Source: Thermovibrio ammonificans HB-1 (GTDB lineage: Bacteria; Aquificota; Aquificia; Desulfurobacteriales; Desulfurobacteriaceae). Taken from it: DNA of 64,000 bases. This document shows, one piece after another, positions 1 to 55,438 of this stretch. The DNA is taken from positions 155,001-219,000 of the forward strand of contig NC_014926.1 of the NCBI RefSeq assembly GCF_000185805.1. The letters are read 5' to 3'. The first letter of the stretch is position 1. Each line of letters begins with the position of its first letter. Below the pieces are notes generated by a model. That model worked only from the letters and a program-made list of their open reading frames with translations, ran no database searches and had not been told where the DNA came from. The position numbers and the translations under genes were made by a program.

Positions 1-1139
1 GTTTTGAGTTTGACGGTTTGGTGTTTGAGGGCTGTGTAGAGCTTCGTCCCCAAGAATTTATCGAACTTCTTTTTCTGTTTGGCGAGCCTTGCAGCCTCTG
101 TTAGGTGTTCAACGGGGAAGTTAAAGAGTTTGAGCTCTTCCTTGAATTCCCGCTCGATTTTTTTCAGCTCCTTTTGAGCTTCTGCTTTTAGGGTCTCCTC
201 TTTCACTTTACCGTATAGTTGTGAGAGCTTCTCCGCCGAGGAGAGCAAGCTGTGGTAGATGTCGGTTAAAATTTTGAGCCTTCTGCTTTTCTTCTCTTTA
301 ACTGCCGGGTTTGTTACCGTGGCGAAGATGTCGTCGGCTCGGTTGTTCAGGAAAAGGTTAAACAGCTTGTGGTCCGGTATGTTGTGCAGGTAGGTGAAGG
401 CGTAGTGGGCCCGGTGGTACCAGGGAGACTTTATCTTGACAAAGAGCGGGAAGGGCTCGGATTCATCGAAGTTTTTGGCAACGAAGCCTTCTACGTTCTC
501 GGCCTCTTCAATCAGCCTCTCTGCCTCTTCTACTGTTCCAACTCTCTTTCGGGGGAGTTTGAAGCCCATCTGTATGAGCTCGTTCTCGGCCTCTTCGAGC
601 AGGTAGTGGCCGGTTCGGTTGTCCCTTACCTCTGTGAGTATCAGCTCTTCGGTTTCGTAGGGTATAACGAGCTGAAACTCGGGTGAGATGAGCTCAAATA
701 TGGGGGTTAGCCCCTTTTCCAGGAGCCTCCGGGTCGCTTTAAGCAGTTTGTCGTTTCTTCTCAGTAACTCTTCCCCTTTTTCTATTTGGGGGTTGGCGAA
801 GTCTTTCTGGGTAAAAAGCCTGACTCTTCCTTCAACAACGGCGGGATGGAGCATCGTGCCGTCGAGTTTCTCCCGGAGTATAAAGAGCTTCCCTTTGAGC
901 CTCTCTTTTTCCGTTTCCGGGTGTTCTCCGAGGTTGAAAAACTTATGGAAGGGACGGGATACAACCCGGCCGGTTTTTGAGGAGAATGTGATGCCCCTCA
1001 GCTCCCTCTTTAGGGGGGTATCGAAGGTTTGAGGGGCGTTGAATCTGTAGGATACTTTTACGAGATCGTTCTCTTTCAGGACTTTGAAGAACTTGTTGCC
1101 CTCGATTTCTTTTAGGGCTTTCTCAAGGGTTATTTCCAC
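1..1139 (-). CDS. T4 Rnl1-type RNA ligase (partial, C-terminus beyond window)
   Basis: The open frame runs on the minus strand from a GTG at 1139 to the window edge, so about 379 residues are visible and the C-terminus is missing. It carries the nucleotidyltransferase motifs of T4 RNA ligase 1 in order: an upstream RELRGITF...KFFNLGE block (about 45-72), motif I EKLDGT with K91 as the predicted adenylylated lysine, motif III FELISPEFQLV (148-158), motif IV EGFV (217-220) and motif V VKIKSPWY (about 234-241). The family seals 5'-phosphate/3'-OH RNA ends using ATP. The start lies inside the hisA 3' end (17-bp overlap), so it is probably translated with the guaA-nadA-hisA operon. Ligase chemistry is well supported by the motifs. 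The substrate is unknown. Rnl1-type enzymes are mostly known from phages, so an RNA-repair or anti-damage role is inference. Confidence 0.82.
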   Translation of the reverse strand, partial: MEITLEKALKEIEGNKFFKVLKENDLVKVSYRFNAPQTFDTPLKRELRGITFSSKTGRVVSRPFHKFFNLGEHPETEKERLKGKLFILREKLDGTMLHPAVVEGRVRLFTQKDFANPQIEKGEELLRRNDKLLKATRRLLEKGLTPIFELISPEFQLVIPYETEELILTEVRDNRTGHYLLEEAENELIQMGFKLPRKRVGTVEEAERLIEEAENVEGFVAKNFDESEPFPLFVKIKSPWYHRAHYAFTYLHNIPDHKLFNLFLNNRADDIFATVTNPAVKEKKSRRLKILTDIYHSLLSSAEKLSQLYGKVKEETLKAEAQKELKKIEREFKEELKLFNFPVEHLTEAARLAKQKKKFDKFLGTKLYTALKHQTVKLK

Positions 1140-51335: not shown

Positions 51336-51908
51336 GTGGCTTCCATAGACGTAAACCAGATAGCAAAAGGTATGAAGCTGGAGATAGAGGGCGCTCCTTA
51401 CGAGATTATAGATTACCAGCACGTAAAACCCGGTAAGGGGCAAGCCTTTGCGAGGATTAAGCTTAAGAACCTGAAAACCGGAAACGTTGTTGAGAAGACC
51501 TACAAAGTGGGCGAGAAGCTCCAGCTTGCCGACTTTGAAGAGCGGGAGATGGAGTACATTTACAACGACGGTGAGTTCTACTACTTTATGGACACCAAAA
51601 CTTACGAGCAGGTTGCCGTCCCCTCCGTTGCCCTCGGCGAGAAGGCAAAGTTCCTGAAGGAGAACACCCCCGTTGTTGTTCAGTTCTACAAGGGAGAGGC
51701 GATTTCCGTTAAGCTTCCCAAGAGTATCGTTCTGGAAGTTGTAGATACCGAGCCCGGATTCAAGGGAGATACGGTGAGCAACGTTACGAAGCCGGCAACC
51801 CTTGAAACCGGTGCCGTTATTCAGGTTCCGATGTTTATAAACGTCGGCGATATGGTCAGGGTGAACCCTGAAACCGGAGAGTACATAGAGCGGGTTAACG
51901 TTAAGTAA
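51336..51908 (+). CDS. efp: Elongation factor P
   Basis: EF-P helps ribosomes through polyproline stretches. The N-terminal KOW-like part has the modification-loop lysine in VKPGKGQAF, and the two OB domains follow; the late [17 protein letters not shown] end is typical. 190 residues. GTG start at 51336 behind CGGAGGTG. It heads efp-accB-accC. Confidence 0.97.
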
Positions 51909-51918
51909 GGGGGTTATC

Positions 51919-52371
51919 TTGCTTGAGAAGCTGGAGAAGCTCTTAAAGTCCCTTGAGAATAGTTCTGTTGAAGAGCTTGAGCTCGAAACGGAAGGGTTAA
52001 AGGTTAGGGTGAAGTTCAGCAGGGGAGCTTCCGCCGCCCCTGCTTTGCCTGCACCTGAGGCTCAGCAGCCGCAAGAGGCTGCAGGGTCGGGTGGCTCCGA
52101 GCCTCCTGTTGAGGAGGCAAAGGAGGCCAGCTACTACGTTGTAGAGTCTCCTATGGTGGGAACCTTTTACAGGGCGCCTGCTCCCGGTGCAGAGCCCTTC
52201 GTGAAGGAAGGGGACTACGTAGAGAAGGGGCAGACCCTCTGTATCATAGAGGCCCTTAAAGTTATGAACGAGATAGAGTCTGAAGTTTCCGGAATAGTCA
52301 GGAAGATTCTCGTAGAGAACGGTCAGCCGGTTGAGTACGGCCAGCCGCTCTTTTATATAGAGCCTAAGTAG
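51919..52371 (+). CDS. accB: Biotin carboxyl carrier protein of acetyl-CoA carboxylase
   Basis: A 150-residue AccB: helical N-terminus, Ala-Pro-rich linker (about 35-70) and biotinyl domain (about 74-150). The biotin lysine lies in EALKVMNEI, a variant of the usual EAMKM(M)NEI. TTG start at 51919. Followed 8 bp later by accC. Confidence 0.94.
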
Positions 52372-52379
52372 GGAGGGAG

Positions 52380-53726
52380 ATGTTTAAAAAGGTTCTCATA
52401 GCCAACAGAGGCGAAATCGCCGTAAGGATAATCAGAACCTGCAGAGAACTCGGTATAAAAACGGTTGCCGTTTACTCCACTGCCGATAGGGACTCCCTGC
52501 ACGTTTACCTTGCAGACGAGTCGGTCTGTATAGGCGGCCCCCAGCCCTCTCAGAGCTACCTGAACGTTCCGGCTATTATTGCCGCGGCCGAGCTGACCGG
52601 GGCCGACGCCGTTCATCCCGGTTACGGCTTCCTTTCTGAAAACCCGGGATTTGCCGAAATCTGCCAGGCCTGCGGCATAAAGTTCATAGGCCCCTCCCCG
52701 GAAACCATGCTCCTCATGGGAGATAAGGCCAAGGCGAGGGAAGTTGCAAAGAAGGCCGGCGTTCCGGTTGTTCCCGGCAGCGGCGTTGTCAAAACGGTTC
52801 AGGAGGCCCTTCGGGAGGCTGAGAGGATAGGCTTCCCGGTTCTGGTTAAGGCGGCCCACGGTGGCGGCGGCAGGGGAATGCGGCTTATAGAGTCTGCTCG
52901 GGATGCGGAAACGCAGATAGCCACCGCTATGGCGGAGGCCGAAGCCGCCTTTGGTAGCGGGGAGGTTTACGTAGAGAAGTTCGTTGAGAACCCCCGCCAC
53001 ATAGAGGTTCAGGTTATTGCCGACTCTAAGGGCAACGTTTTCACCCTTTTTGAGAGGGAGTGTTCCCTCCAGAGGAGGCATCAGAAGGTTGTTGAGGAAG
53101 CGCCCTCCCCCTTTGTTACCCCGGAGCTCCGCCGGGAGCTCTCTAAAGCGGCGGCCAGTATCGCCCGATACATAAACTATGAGGGTGCCGGAACTGTAGA
53201 GTTCCTGGTTGACGGTAAGGGGAACTTCTACTTTATAGAGATGAACACCAGGATTCAGGTTGAGCACCCGGTTACGGAAATGGTTACGAGTAAAGACCTT
53301 ATAGCGCAGCAGATAGCGGCGGCTGCCGGTGAAGAGCTTGACTTTAGTCAAGTTAAATTGAACGGACACGCCGTAGAATTCAGGATAACCTGTGAAGACT
53401 ACAGGAGCGGTTTTAGGCCCGTTCCGGGAAAGGTGGAGAAGCTCCTCCTTCCCGGCGGGTTTGGCGTGAGGGTGGACACTCACCTTTACGAGGGCTACAA
53501 GGTTCCCGTTTACTACGACTCCCTTCTTGCCAAACTTGTGGTTTGGGGAGAAACGAGGGAAGAGGCGTTAAAGAGGGCGAAGAGGGCCCTTTCGGAGTTC
53601 GTGATAAAGGGAGACTTGAAGACAACTATACCGTTTCACCTAAAACTGCTGGAGAACGAACTATTTTTGAGGGGAGAGATTGACACGAAAACCTTAGAAG
53701 ATAAAATACTTCCTGAAATCACGTAA
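52380..53726 (+). CDS. accC: Biotin carboxylase subunit of acetyl-CoA carboxylase
   Basis: AccC carboxylates biotin on AccB with ATP and bicarbonate. [25 protein letters not shown], the ATP-binding [10 protein letters not shown] loop, [18 protein letters not shown] and [17 protein letters not shown] are the classic blocks. 448 residues. A pyruvate or propionyl carboxylase subunit would look alike, but pairing with accB settles the call. ATG at 52380 follows GGGAGGGAG. Confidence 0.96.
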
Positions 53727-53771
53727 GAGTGAACCGCCCTTCTGCTCCTTAATTACATTTCTGGAGGCGTT

Positions 53772-54242
53772 ATGGCAACTTCAAAGTCTGAAAAAGTTAA
53801 GAGTTGGCTTAAAGATTATTTAAGCGAGTTTAAAGAGTACTCCGGAACCGTTGAAGAGCTTGCGAAGCTCGCCGGAGCTTCCACCTACCTTATTAAAAAG
53901 GTGATAGGTGAGCTCGAGGAGGAAGGTTTTTTAAAATCTGACTCCAAGAGAGGAAGGGGGCTCTTCATATCGGTTATTCAGCCGGAACCATCTGAACCTG
54001 TTGGGGAGGAGAAGGTGGAAGCCAAGGAGACTACACAGGAGAAGAAGAAGGAGAAGAAAAAGTCCCTTCAGGACCAGGTGCTCTCTTCTCTCCTCGGGAA
54101 AGACGTTGTGGTTTTCCTCATCAGCGGAACCAGGCTTGAAGGGAAGCTCCTGGATTTTGACAACTTTACCCTTGCAATGACGGCGCCCAAAGGGAAATCG
54201 CTGGTTTACAAGCACGCCGTAGCCACAATCCTTTTTGAGTAG
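53772..54242 (+). CDS. Winged-helix/Hfq fusion protein 1
   Basis: A 156-residue protein with two domains. Residues 5-68 form a winged-helix-like DNA-binding part (GTVEELAKLAGASTYLIKKVIGELEEEGFL), then a Lys/Glu-rich linker (70-97), then a full Hfq Sm domain (98-156): LQDQVLSSLLGK with the Gln8/Asp9-type RNA contacts, ISGTRLEGKLLDFDNF and the YKHAVATI signature of Hfq. Bacterial Hfq usually lacks an N-terminal extension. A hexameric RNA chaperone with six DNA-binding arms is a structural inference. It precedes a paralogue by 6 bp, in the accBC run. Confidence 0.85.
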   Translation: MATSKSEKVKSWLKDYLSEFKEYSGTVEELAKLAGASTYLIKKVIGELEEEGFLKSDSKRGRGLFISVIQPEPSEPVGEEKVEAKETTQEKKKEKKKSLQDQVLSSLLGKDVVVFLISGTRLEGKLLDFDNFTLAMTAPKGKSLVYKHAVATILFE

Positions 54243-54248
54243 GGGGAT

Positions 54249-54743
54249 ATGAAGAAGTTCAAAACACTTGAAGAGGCTCAGATAGAGCTCATAGAGCTAC
54301 TCGAGCAGGAGGGTGAGTTCAGGGGAACCCTGAACGAGCTTGCAGATAGGCTCAACGTAAAACCCGAGAACATAAGGCCTCTCCTTCAGCTGCTGAAGTC
54401 CTCGGGCGACGTTCTCTATGAAGAGAGCGAGGAGGGCCTCATAGTGAGGCCGGCGATGATGGTTCCCGTTGTGCCTCCCACCCTAACTCCCGAGCAAGAG
54501 CAAGAGGTTCAACAGAAGCTCAAAGAGGGCTACAAGGTTATAGCCTGCTCCACTATGGGGGGCGTTCAGAGCAGGGAACTCCGAAGCGCCCTCGGGAAAA
54601 GGGTAATAGTCTACTTCAGGAACGGTAGTAAGGTAGAGGCCAAGTTAAAGGGTTTCGACCGTTTCTGCCTGAAGCTGAGGAACTATATGGGTAACATGCT
54701 GGCCTATAAACACGCCATATCTACGATTGTTTACAAGCCGTAA
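54249..54743 (+). CDS. Winged-helix/Hfq fusion protein 2
   Basis: A 164-residue paralogue of the preceding gene. The N-terminal winged-helix part (8-68, GTLNELADRLNVKPENIRPLLQLLKSSGDVL) and the C-terminal Hfq-like domain (about 104-164) are both present. FDRF (136-139) and YKHAISTIV (153-161) match Hfq, but the LQDQ motif that contacts U-rich RNA on the proximal face is replaced by VQSRELRSAL. So it may bind RNA differently or form mixed rings with paralogue 1. Its last 13 bp overlap the opposing regulator gene. Confidence 0.8.
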   Translation: MKKFKTLEEAQIELIELLEQEGEFRGTLNELADRLNVKPENIRPLLQLLKSSGDVLYEESEEGLIVRPAMMVPVVPPTLTPEQEQEVQQKLKEGYKVIACSTMGGVQSRELRSALGKRVIVYFRNGSKVEAKLKGFDRFCLKLRNYMGNMLAYKHAISTIVYKP

Positions 54744-55402
54744 CTTAGCGTGTACCCCTTCCTCCTTACACTTCTTATTGTTAGTTGAGGGTCTATCTTC
54801 CCGAGAATCTTCCTTAGGTGGGAGATGTAAACCGGAAGGCTATCTTCCCTGATGCCGAGCAAGTAGAAGTCCCTGTAGTGAACGGGCTCTTGAGGGTTTT
54901 GAAACAGGAGCTTTAGAACCAAGGCCTCTCTCAGCGTCAGCTGCTCGGCCGATACCACCTCGTTGCCCGATATCTTCTCGATTTTCGGCTCTTTTAGGTT
55001 TGCGGTGAGTTTTATAAACTCCCCCTCCCCCAGCTGAACTTTCGGGTTTTCGCTCCTTGCCAGTATTGCCGAGAGGATAGACCATATGTTGACTTTTAGG
55101 TTGCAGGTATAGTAGATTTCTATATCACGTTGAGGAGTTTCGAAACGCTCCAGCGTTTTATGCTCGCTGACCACCACAACCGGTGCGTCGGTTGCCTCCT
55201 TTACCCTCTCTACGAGGTCTTTGCTGGAGGTTTCGCTGAAGAAGACCAAACAACAGTCCAGCAGGTGGTGCTTCTTAGAGGAGGATGTGTAGGAGATGTC
55301 CTGAGAGATTAGCTTAACGGGACCTTGGAACCTAAGCTCTTCCACGGCCTTTTTGGCAAGGCGGTCGTTGGGAAGAGAGCCAATTACAAAGACTCTTTTC
55401 AT
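54731..55402 (-). CDS. OmpR-like winged-helix regulator with degenerate receiver
   Basis: A 223-residue protein. The C-terminal part (about 125-222, SAEQLTLREALVLKLLFQNPQEPVHYRDFYLLGI...VYISHLRKILGKIDPQLTIRSVRRKGYTLSY) is a clear OmpR/PhoB winged helix. The N-terminal part resembles a receiver (KRVFVIGSLP start, a VVVVSEH strand) but the phosphoacceptor Asp at the end of the third strand is missing (CCLVFFSET). Two cysteines sit in that strand. No histidine kinase is nearby. The ATG at 55402 is preferred to GTG 55417 because GGGGGGA lies 7 bases upstream. Confidence 0.78.
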   Translation of the reverse strand: MKRVFVIGSLPNDRLAKKAVEELRFQGPVKLISQDISYTSSSKKHHLLDCCLVFFSETSSKDLVERVKEATDAPVVVVSEHKTLERFETPQRDIEIYYTCNLKVNIWSILSAILARSENPKVQLGEGEFIKLTANLKEPKIEKISGNEVVSAEQLTLREALVLKLLFQNPQEPVHYRDFYLLGIREDSLPVYISHLRKILGKIDPQLTIRSVRRKGYTLSYGL

Positions 55403-55438
55403 GTGAAATCCCCCCACTTGATAGCTTTTTAGTTTTGC

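Follow-up and report, generated by a model that had tools for sequence, protein, structure and literature searches.

The Hfq of bacteria is known as a ring of six identical subunits to which no further folded domain is attached. What, then, are two adjoining genes in Thermovibrio ammonificans HB-1, a cultured deep-sea-vent bacterium, whose products both appear to carry a winged helix in front of an Hfq Sm domain? Do they take the place of the normal Hfq or act beside it, and do they work as one complex or as two? The genes lie in a stretch of 64,000 nucleotides, referred to as the window in the following, and an earlier note made from its sequence had proposed them as an undescribed class of RNA/DNA regulators. 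Such proteins may connect the binding of RNA with that of DNA. In its conserved, paired form, the pair would offer a natural case of an Sm ring with a DNA-binding domain physically attached, possibly even a mixed bacterial ring, and it would allow the action of Hfq on DNA and nascent transcripts to be tested with separable parts.

The view that no Hfq with a fused DNA-binding domain had been described is too strong. Zinc-finger/Hfq-like fusions encoded by archaeal plasmids (pCIR10 gp2, pP12-1 gp2 and M. jannaschii ECE1/ECE2) were reported in 2013, and their authors proposed that they mediate recruitment to DNA for the regulation of transcripts (PMC3543421). These proteins likewise place a DNA-binding-type domain N-terminally of an Hfq-like domain, but this domain is a C2H2 zinc finger instead of a winged helix, the genes are plasmid-borne and no tandem paralogue pair has been reported. 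A further precedent is PafBC, in which a wHTH is paired with an Sm-type fold. For bacteria, we found no paper on a winged-helix/Hfq fusion in a literature search that covered mainly openly available articles; a term search of the Aquifex Hfq paper (PMC5379935) and of an Aquificales RNA survey gave no mention of the present proteins.

Two adjoining winged-helix/Hfq genes

The two open reading frames, A (53772-54242, 156 aa) and B (54249-54743, 164 aa), are encoded on the forward strand, 6 bp apart, and both are preceded by good ribosome-binding sites in the sequence. They are composed of the following parts:

53763..53767, + strand: GGAGG, ribosome-binding site of gene A (from the sequence; kept upstream of A in nearly all relatives)
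53772..53975, + strand: gene A, winged-helix domain, residues 1-68 (AlphaFold2 secondary structure, alignments)
53976..54062, + strand: gene A, charged, disordered linker, residues 69-97 (pLDDT below 50 at 73-94)
54063..54239, + strand: gene A, Hfq Sm domain, residues 98-156, with SLQDQ...FDNF...YKHA (Pfam PF17209, Foldseek, site table)
54249..54455, + strand: gene B, winged-helix domain, residues 1-69; both its net charge and its wing are acidic (AlphaFold2, hhalign to the winged helix of A, charges)
54456..54557, + strand: gene B, connecting segment of residues 70-103 that adds a helix at 81-92 and a strand at 96-100 (AlphaFold2)
54558..54740, + strand: gene B, Hfq Sm domain, residues 104-164, with GGVQSREL...FDRF...YKHAISTI, strongly basic (Pfam PF17209, Foldseek, charge)

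The C-terminal assignment rests on several lines of evidence. The Pfam Hfq profile PF17209 matches A with 51.7 bits (residues 99-154) and B with 43.1 bits (residues 118-161), both above its gathering cut-off of 27, and sequence searches of the PDB with either protein return Hfq structures. In single-chain AlphaFold2 models, computed with family alignments, the C-terminal part of both proteins adopts the Sm fold, an N-terminal helix followed by five strands, for which Foldseek retrieves Hfq crystal structures from the PDB. The motifs listed in the earlier note are all present, i.e. LQDQ at 99-102, FDNF and YKHA in A, and FDRF and YKHAISTI in B. However, neither protein reaches the cut-off of the NCBIfam equivalog TIGR02383 (50.9 and 39.8 bits for A and B, against 61.7). 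Given this score and the extra domain, A and B are members of the Hfq family that stand outside the equivalog of stand-alone Hfq.

For the N-terminal part, where a model without a winged helix would have spoken against the proposed architecture, both predictions show one. The order helix-strand-helix-helix-strand-strand spans residues 3-68 in A (helix 3-20, strand 22-25, helices 27-34 and 38-50, strands 54-59 and 63-68) and 7-68 in B (helix 7-21, strand 24-26, helices 28-35 and 39-51, strands 55-59 and 64-68), with pLDDT values mostly between 80 and 90. Directly after this domain, A has its disordered linker (73-94) and B its extra helix and strand. Foldseek searches of viral models with A also yield Crp-type HTH, RepL and replication-initiator proteins, and for several family members the N-terminus has weak matches to HTH families of Pfam (GntR, 1.1e-5; Rrf2, 7.5e-5; HTH_11, 4.4e-4), no curated Pfam HTH family exceeding its own cut-off on these N-termini. 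A zinc finger of the C2H2 type is absent from the N-terminal domains, since A has no cysteines and B has two single ones, both outside this domain. These data confirm that A and B each consist of an N-terminal winged helix and a C-terminal Hfq Sm domain. In A, residues K10, W12, K43, G61 and G63 of the winged helix are invariant in the alignments and accompanied by a basic KRG(K/R)G wing, so that its charge and conservation make it a putative DNA-binding domain. By homology, the Sm domains of both proteins would be expected to form rings.

The stand-alone Hfq is retained

The earlier suggestion that these proteins could replace normal Hfq does not hold. In the same genome (two contigs that total 1,759,526 bases, 1,682,965 of them in the larger one), we found a stand-alone Hfq of 78 aa with a score of 100 bits (C2:455371-455562), directly downstream of miaA and thus in the same place as in E. 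coli. As every family genome with a pair also encodes a stand-alone Hfq, the pair is an addition and not a replacement.

Additional Hfq-family genes are likewise seen in genomes of other Aquificota, where the second Hfq differs from A and B in having no added domain; these paralogs are mostly open frames of 62-110 aa. The 112 Aquificota genomes outside the family and its sister lineage encode stand-alone Hfqs that are short and in most genomes come in two copies (L114-L133 and L148-L157). The first of these is 62-75 aa long and is in many cases located in a miaA-hfq-hflX arrangement, the second is 80-100 aa long and in many cases adjoins an ADP-ribosylglycohydrolase-like gene. We found no paper on two Hfq copies in Aquificota families.

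Distribution and gene neighborhood

A profile search of 136 Aquificota genomes, 22 of which belong to the Desulfurobacteriaceae, located the pair in essentially every genome of this family and in a sister lineage of the same order. Within the family, 21 of the 22 genomes encode A and 20 encode B; the two exceptions are a genome of 62% completeness that lacks both genes, and one in which the contig ends just past A. Across 23 genomes of the order, A and B are never found apart except in this contig-edge case. The winged helix of A has no strong match in the other 112 Aquificota genomes. Beyond this phylum, the search was based on this winged helix: in a scan of 84,980 species, matches were confined to the same order (the records of the family being named Desulfurobacteriaceae, Thermovibrio and Desulfurobacterium). 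We also considered a viral or plasmid origin and rejected it, as no relative of A was found in viral contigs or phages, and the single plasmid match to B is an ordinary hfq.

Upstream of the pair lie three genes:

51336..51908, + strand: efp, elongation factor P (synteny, conserved upstream neighbor)
51919..52371, + strand: accB, biotin carboxyl carrier protein (synteny, conserved upstream neighbor)
52380..53726, + strand: accC, biotin carboxylase (synteny; gene identity from its own sequence)

The order efp-accB-accC-A-B is kept in every family genome whose contig extends far enough, and the downstream genes vary. The distance between A and B ranges from -4 to +15 bp, with a four-base overlap in two genomes. 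Such short gaps make it likely that the translation of A and B is coupled and that the two proteins are produced in similar amounts. A candidate for a separate promoter of A, the strong sigma-70-like match TTGACA-16-TAAAAT at 53680, was discarded, because it codes for the C-terminus of AccC and is absent from many relatives. Comparison of the upstream regions of relatives yielded no conserved operator or promoter in front of A, and Rfam yielded no known RNA element near the pair.

On the opposite strand, a convergent gene (54731-55417, -) overlaps B by 13 bases at its 3' end. Its product has a DNA-binding domain of the OmpR/PhoB type (Trans_reg_C), and the N-terminal half in front of it matches no receiver family of Pfam. 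In relatives, the gene is only 33-38% identical and often absent, which marks it as fast evolving.

Ancestry and selection

Profile comparison of A with B (hhalign) gives a full-length alignment with an E-value of 2.5e-22 and, for the winged helices alone, of 5.9e-8; in addition, both proteins share the two-residue deletion that removes the rim patch of Hfq. Judged by these alignments, A and B are old tandem duplicates, homologous over their whole length, and the simplest reading of their history is that the fusion arose once and that the fused gene was then duplicated in tandem, ahead of the split between the two families of the order. The source of the Hfq part varies with the sampling of the tree: calculated with the short Hfqs that are linked to miaA in other Aquificota, A and B group with these (91% support), but they shift beside the other Aquificota Hfq when it is added (0.986), both in an alignment of about 60 columns. 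Gene context gave no help in placing this source.

Both domains of A and B are under purifying selection. Within genera, dN is far below dS in both (for example, dN 0.015 and dS 1.13 for the Hfq part of A, and dN 0.07 and dS 0.96 for its winged helix), many of the dS values being saturated, and constraint is relaxed in the linker. In most pairs of orthologs, the Hfq part is the most conserved region (87-98% identity), and the linker of A varies in both length and sequence, with 41-85% identity between pairs, compared to 88-98% for the Hfq part of A. Together with the presence of the two genes in nearly all family genomes, the low dN relative to dS shows that the arrangement is not due to chance.

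Contact sites and division of charge

To compare the potential for RNA binding, we examined the positions at which E. coli Hfq contacts its ligands. With their C-terminal Sm fold, YKHA motif and equivalents of Q8, F42, K56 and H57, A and B resemble ordinary Hfqs such as that of Aquifex aeolicus (5SZD; PMC5379935); they differ from these by the N-terminal winged helix, the lost arginine patch on the rim and their occurrence as diverged tandem copies. In A, the four equivalents are invariant in 18/18 orthologs. In B, those of Q8, K56 and H57 are found in 19/19, and position 42 is phenylalanine in 17 and tyrosine in 2. The statement that B has lost the LQD motif is therefore only partly correct: the motif reads VQS, with leucine and aspartate changed, yet the glutamine, the uracil contact in E. 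coli Hfq, is kept in all 19. The basic lateral rim (R16 R17 E18 R19 in E. coli) is replaced in all A and B proteins by a segment two residues shorter, so that A retains the proximal Q/F/K/H set without the arginine patch.

The two proteins also diverge in their charges. The Sm domain of B carries a net charge of +9 to +11, compared to about +1 in A, +3 in the stand-alone Hfq of the family and +2 in E. coli, and has arginine or lysine at E. coli positions 10, 13, 27, 37, 41 and 45, none of which holds either residue in E. coli Hfq itself. By contrast, the winged helix of B has an acidic net charge of -5 to -9 and wings like YEEIEDE, and that of A is near neutral overall (-2 to +4) and has a conserved basic pair in its recognition helix besides the KRGKG wing. 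A and B are thus specialized in opposite directions, with the charge polarity between winged helix and Sm domain reversed. The acidic domain next to a basic ring in B is reminiscent of E. coli Hfq, whose acidic tail at the C-terminus vies with nucleic acids for binding to the ring (PMC5606850).

This opposite polarity, combined with the constant co-occurrence of the two genes, is the main reason why we favor a single complex with divided roles. We tentatively regard A and B as a co-expressed pair of Hfq paralogs that functions as a DNA-tethered Sm-ring regulator and gained its winged helix before the duplication. A and B would co-assemble in one Sm ring, in which the basic recognition helix and the KRGKG wing of A tether the complex to DNA, and the strongly basic Sm domain of B, with its proximal uridine-contact residues, binds RNA, either nascent transcripts or sRNAs. 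The acidic winged helix of B would then be a protein-contact or auto-inhibitory module and not a reader of DNA, and the ordinary chaperone role would stay with the stand-alone Hfq. Hetero-rings, which the earlier note had raised, are plausible, but the ring with six DNA-binding arms that it envisaged is unlikely if B takes part, since both the winged helix and the wing of B are acidic. In a more specific and rather doubtful version, one subunit of this heteromeric ring would sit on DNA and the other on RNA, making it a co-transcriptional riboregulator at the transcribed gene; such a division of labor would be reminiscent of the heteromeric Sm rings of eukaryotes. Points against the favored complex as a whole are that the shared operon with accB and accC offers no functional hint, that the sister pair lies beside rpe and that the N-termini stay below the cut-offs of all curated HTH families.

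Alternatively, A and B could form two separate homo-hexamers, A as a nucleoid or DNA-binding protein and B as an RNA chaperone, with co-transcription as their sole tie. Each protein has kept its own Sm domain with the conserved YKHA strand region, homo-hexamers of E. coli Hfq bind both RNA and DNA (PMC4963395, PMC6235962), and the charge differences would also fit separate roles. We consider this arrangement a serious rival, but less likely than a single complex, as the genes are never separated within the order, the contig-edge case aside, and their overlap or close spacing suggests a stoichiometric complex.

The sister lineage

The sister family, represented by two genomes (G113 and G114), has a tandem pair of the same layout at a different site, beside rpe:

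L107:6347-7303 and L108:1232-2169: winged-helix/Sm pairs of the sister lineage

In hmmsearch, the orthology of its A proteins is clear (1.5e-22 and 4.1e-22), and that of its B proteins is significant (6.2e-7 and 2.4e-6). Their Sm domains have lost the Hfq signature and the RNA-contact residues, and no recognizable Hfq is found anywhere in G114, a genome of 95% completeness. The winged helix of A and its basic wing have been retained, at 45% identity. This persistence next to an eroded Sm domain suggests that the most constrained function of the pair is the contact of A with nucleic acids, and RNA binding may not be its ancestral or essential one.

These observations bear on a further explanation, in which A and B are an ordinary pair of transcription factors whose Sm domains serve for oligomerization or ligand sensing, with RNA binding being vestigial. 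Regulators combining a wHTH with the Sm-fold WYL domain are common (PMC6789036, PMC4012209). Among them, the transcriptional activator PafBC (wHTH-WYL-WCX) is likewise built from paired proteins, each with a winged helix and an Sm-type fold, the Sm-2 loop of which is thought to bind a ligand (PMC6789036). Besides the sister lineage, where the winged helix of A outlasts the contact residues of Hfq, the loss of the rim patch in both A and B would fit such a role. However, PafBC contains WYL instead of Hfq, has an additional WCX domain and is not ring-forming as described, and neither A nor B has a WYL match in Pfam up to E = 1, Hfq being their best match among Sm-type domains. Moreover, in the Desulfurobacteriaceae, it is mostly the Hfq domain that is best conserved, the proximal RNA-contact residues are kept, and the Sm domain of B has even gained basic residues. 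All in all, a purely transcriptional role is a serious rival but appears less probable, and a DNA-tethered Sm ring remains our preferred, if tentative, reading.

The location of the sister pair also concerns the idea that A and B regulate their own operon, efp-accB-accC, and thereby fatty-acid synthesis locally. Their constant position behind these genes in the family is compatible with this, but the sister pair adjoins rpe and an RNA ligase gene and not acc, and the missing conserved operator or promoter in front of A is a further argument against it, which renders such local regulation very unlikely.

A T4 Rnl1-type RNA ligase gene is also found at the start of the window (3-1139, -), and in the sister family its homolog follows the pair immediately downstream, with an overlap. 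We considered a functional link between the pair and this ligase and dismissed it, because the arrangement is not conserved; in the Desulfurobacteriaceae, the ligase gene is unlinked or absent.
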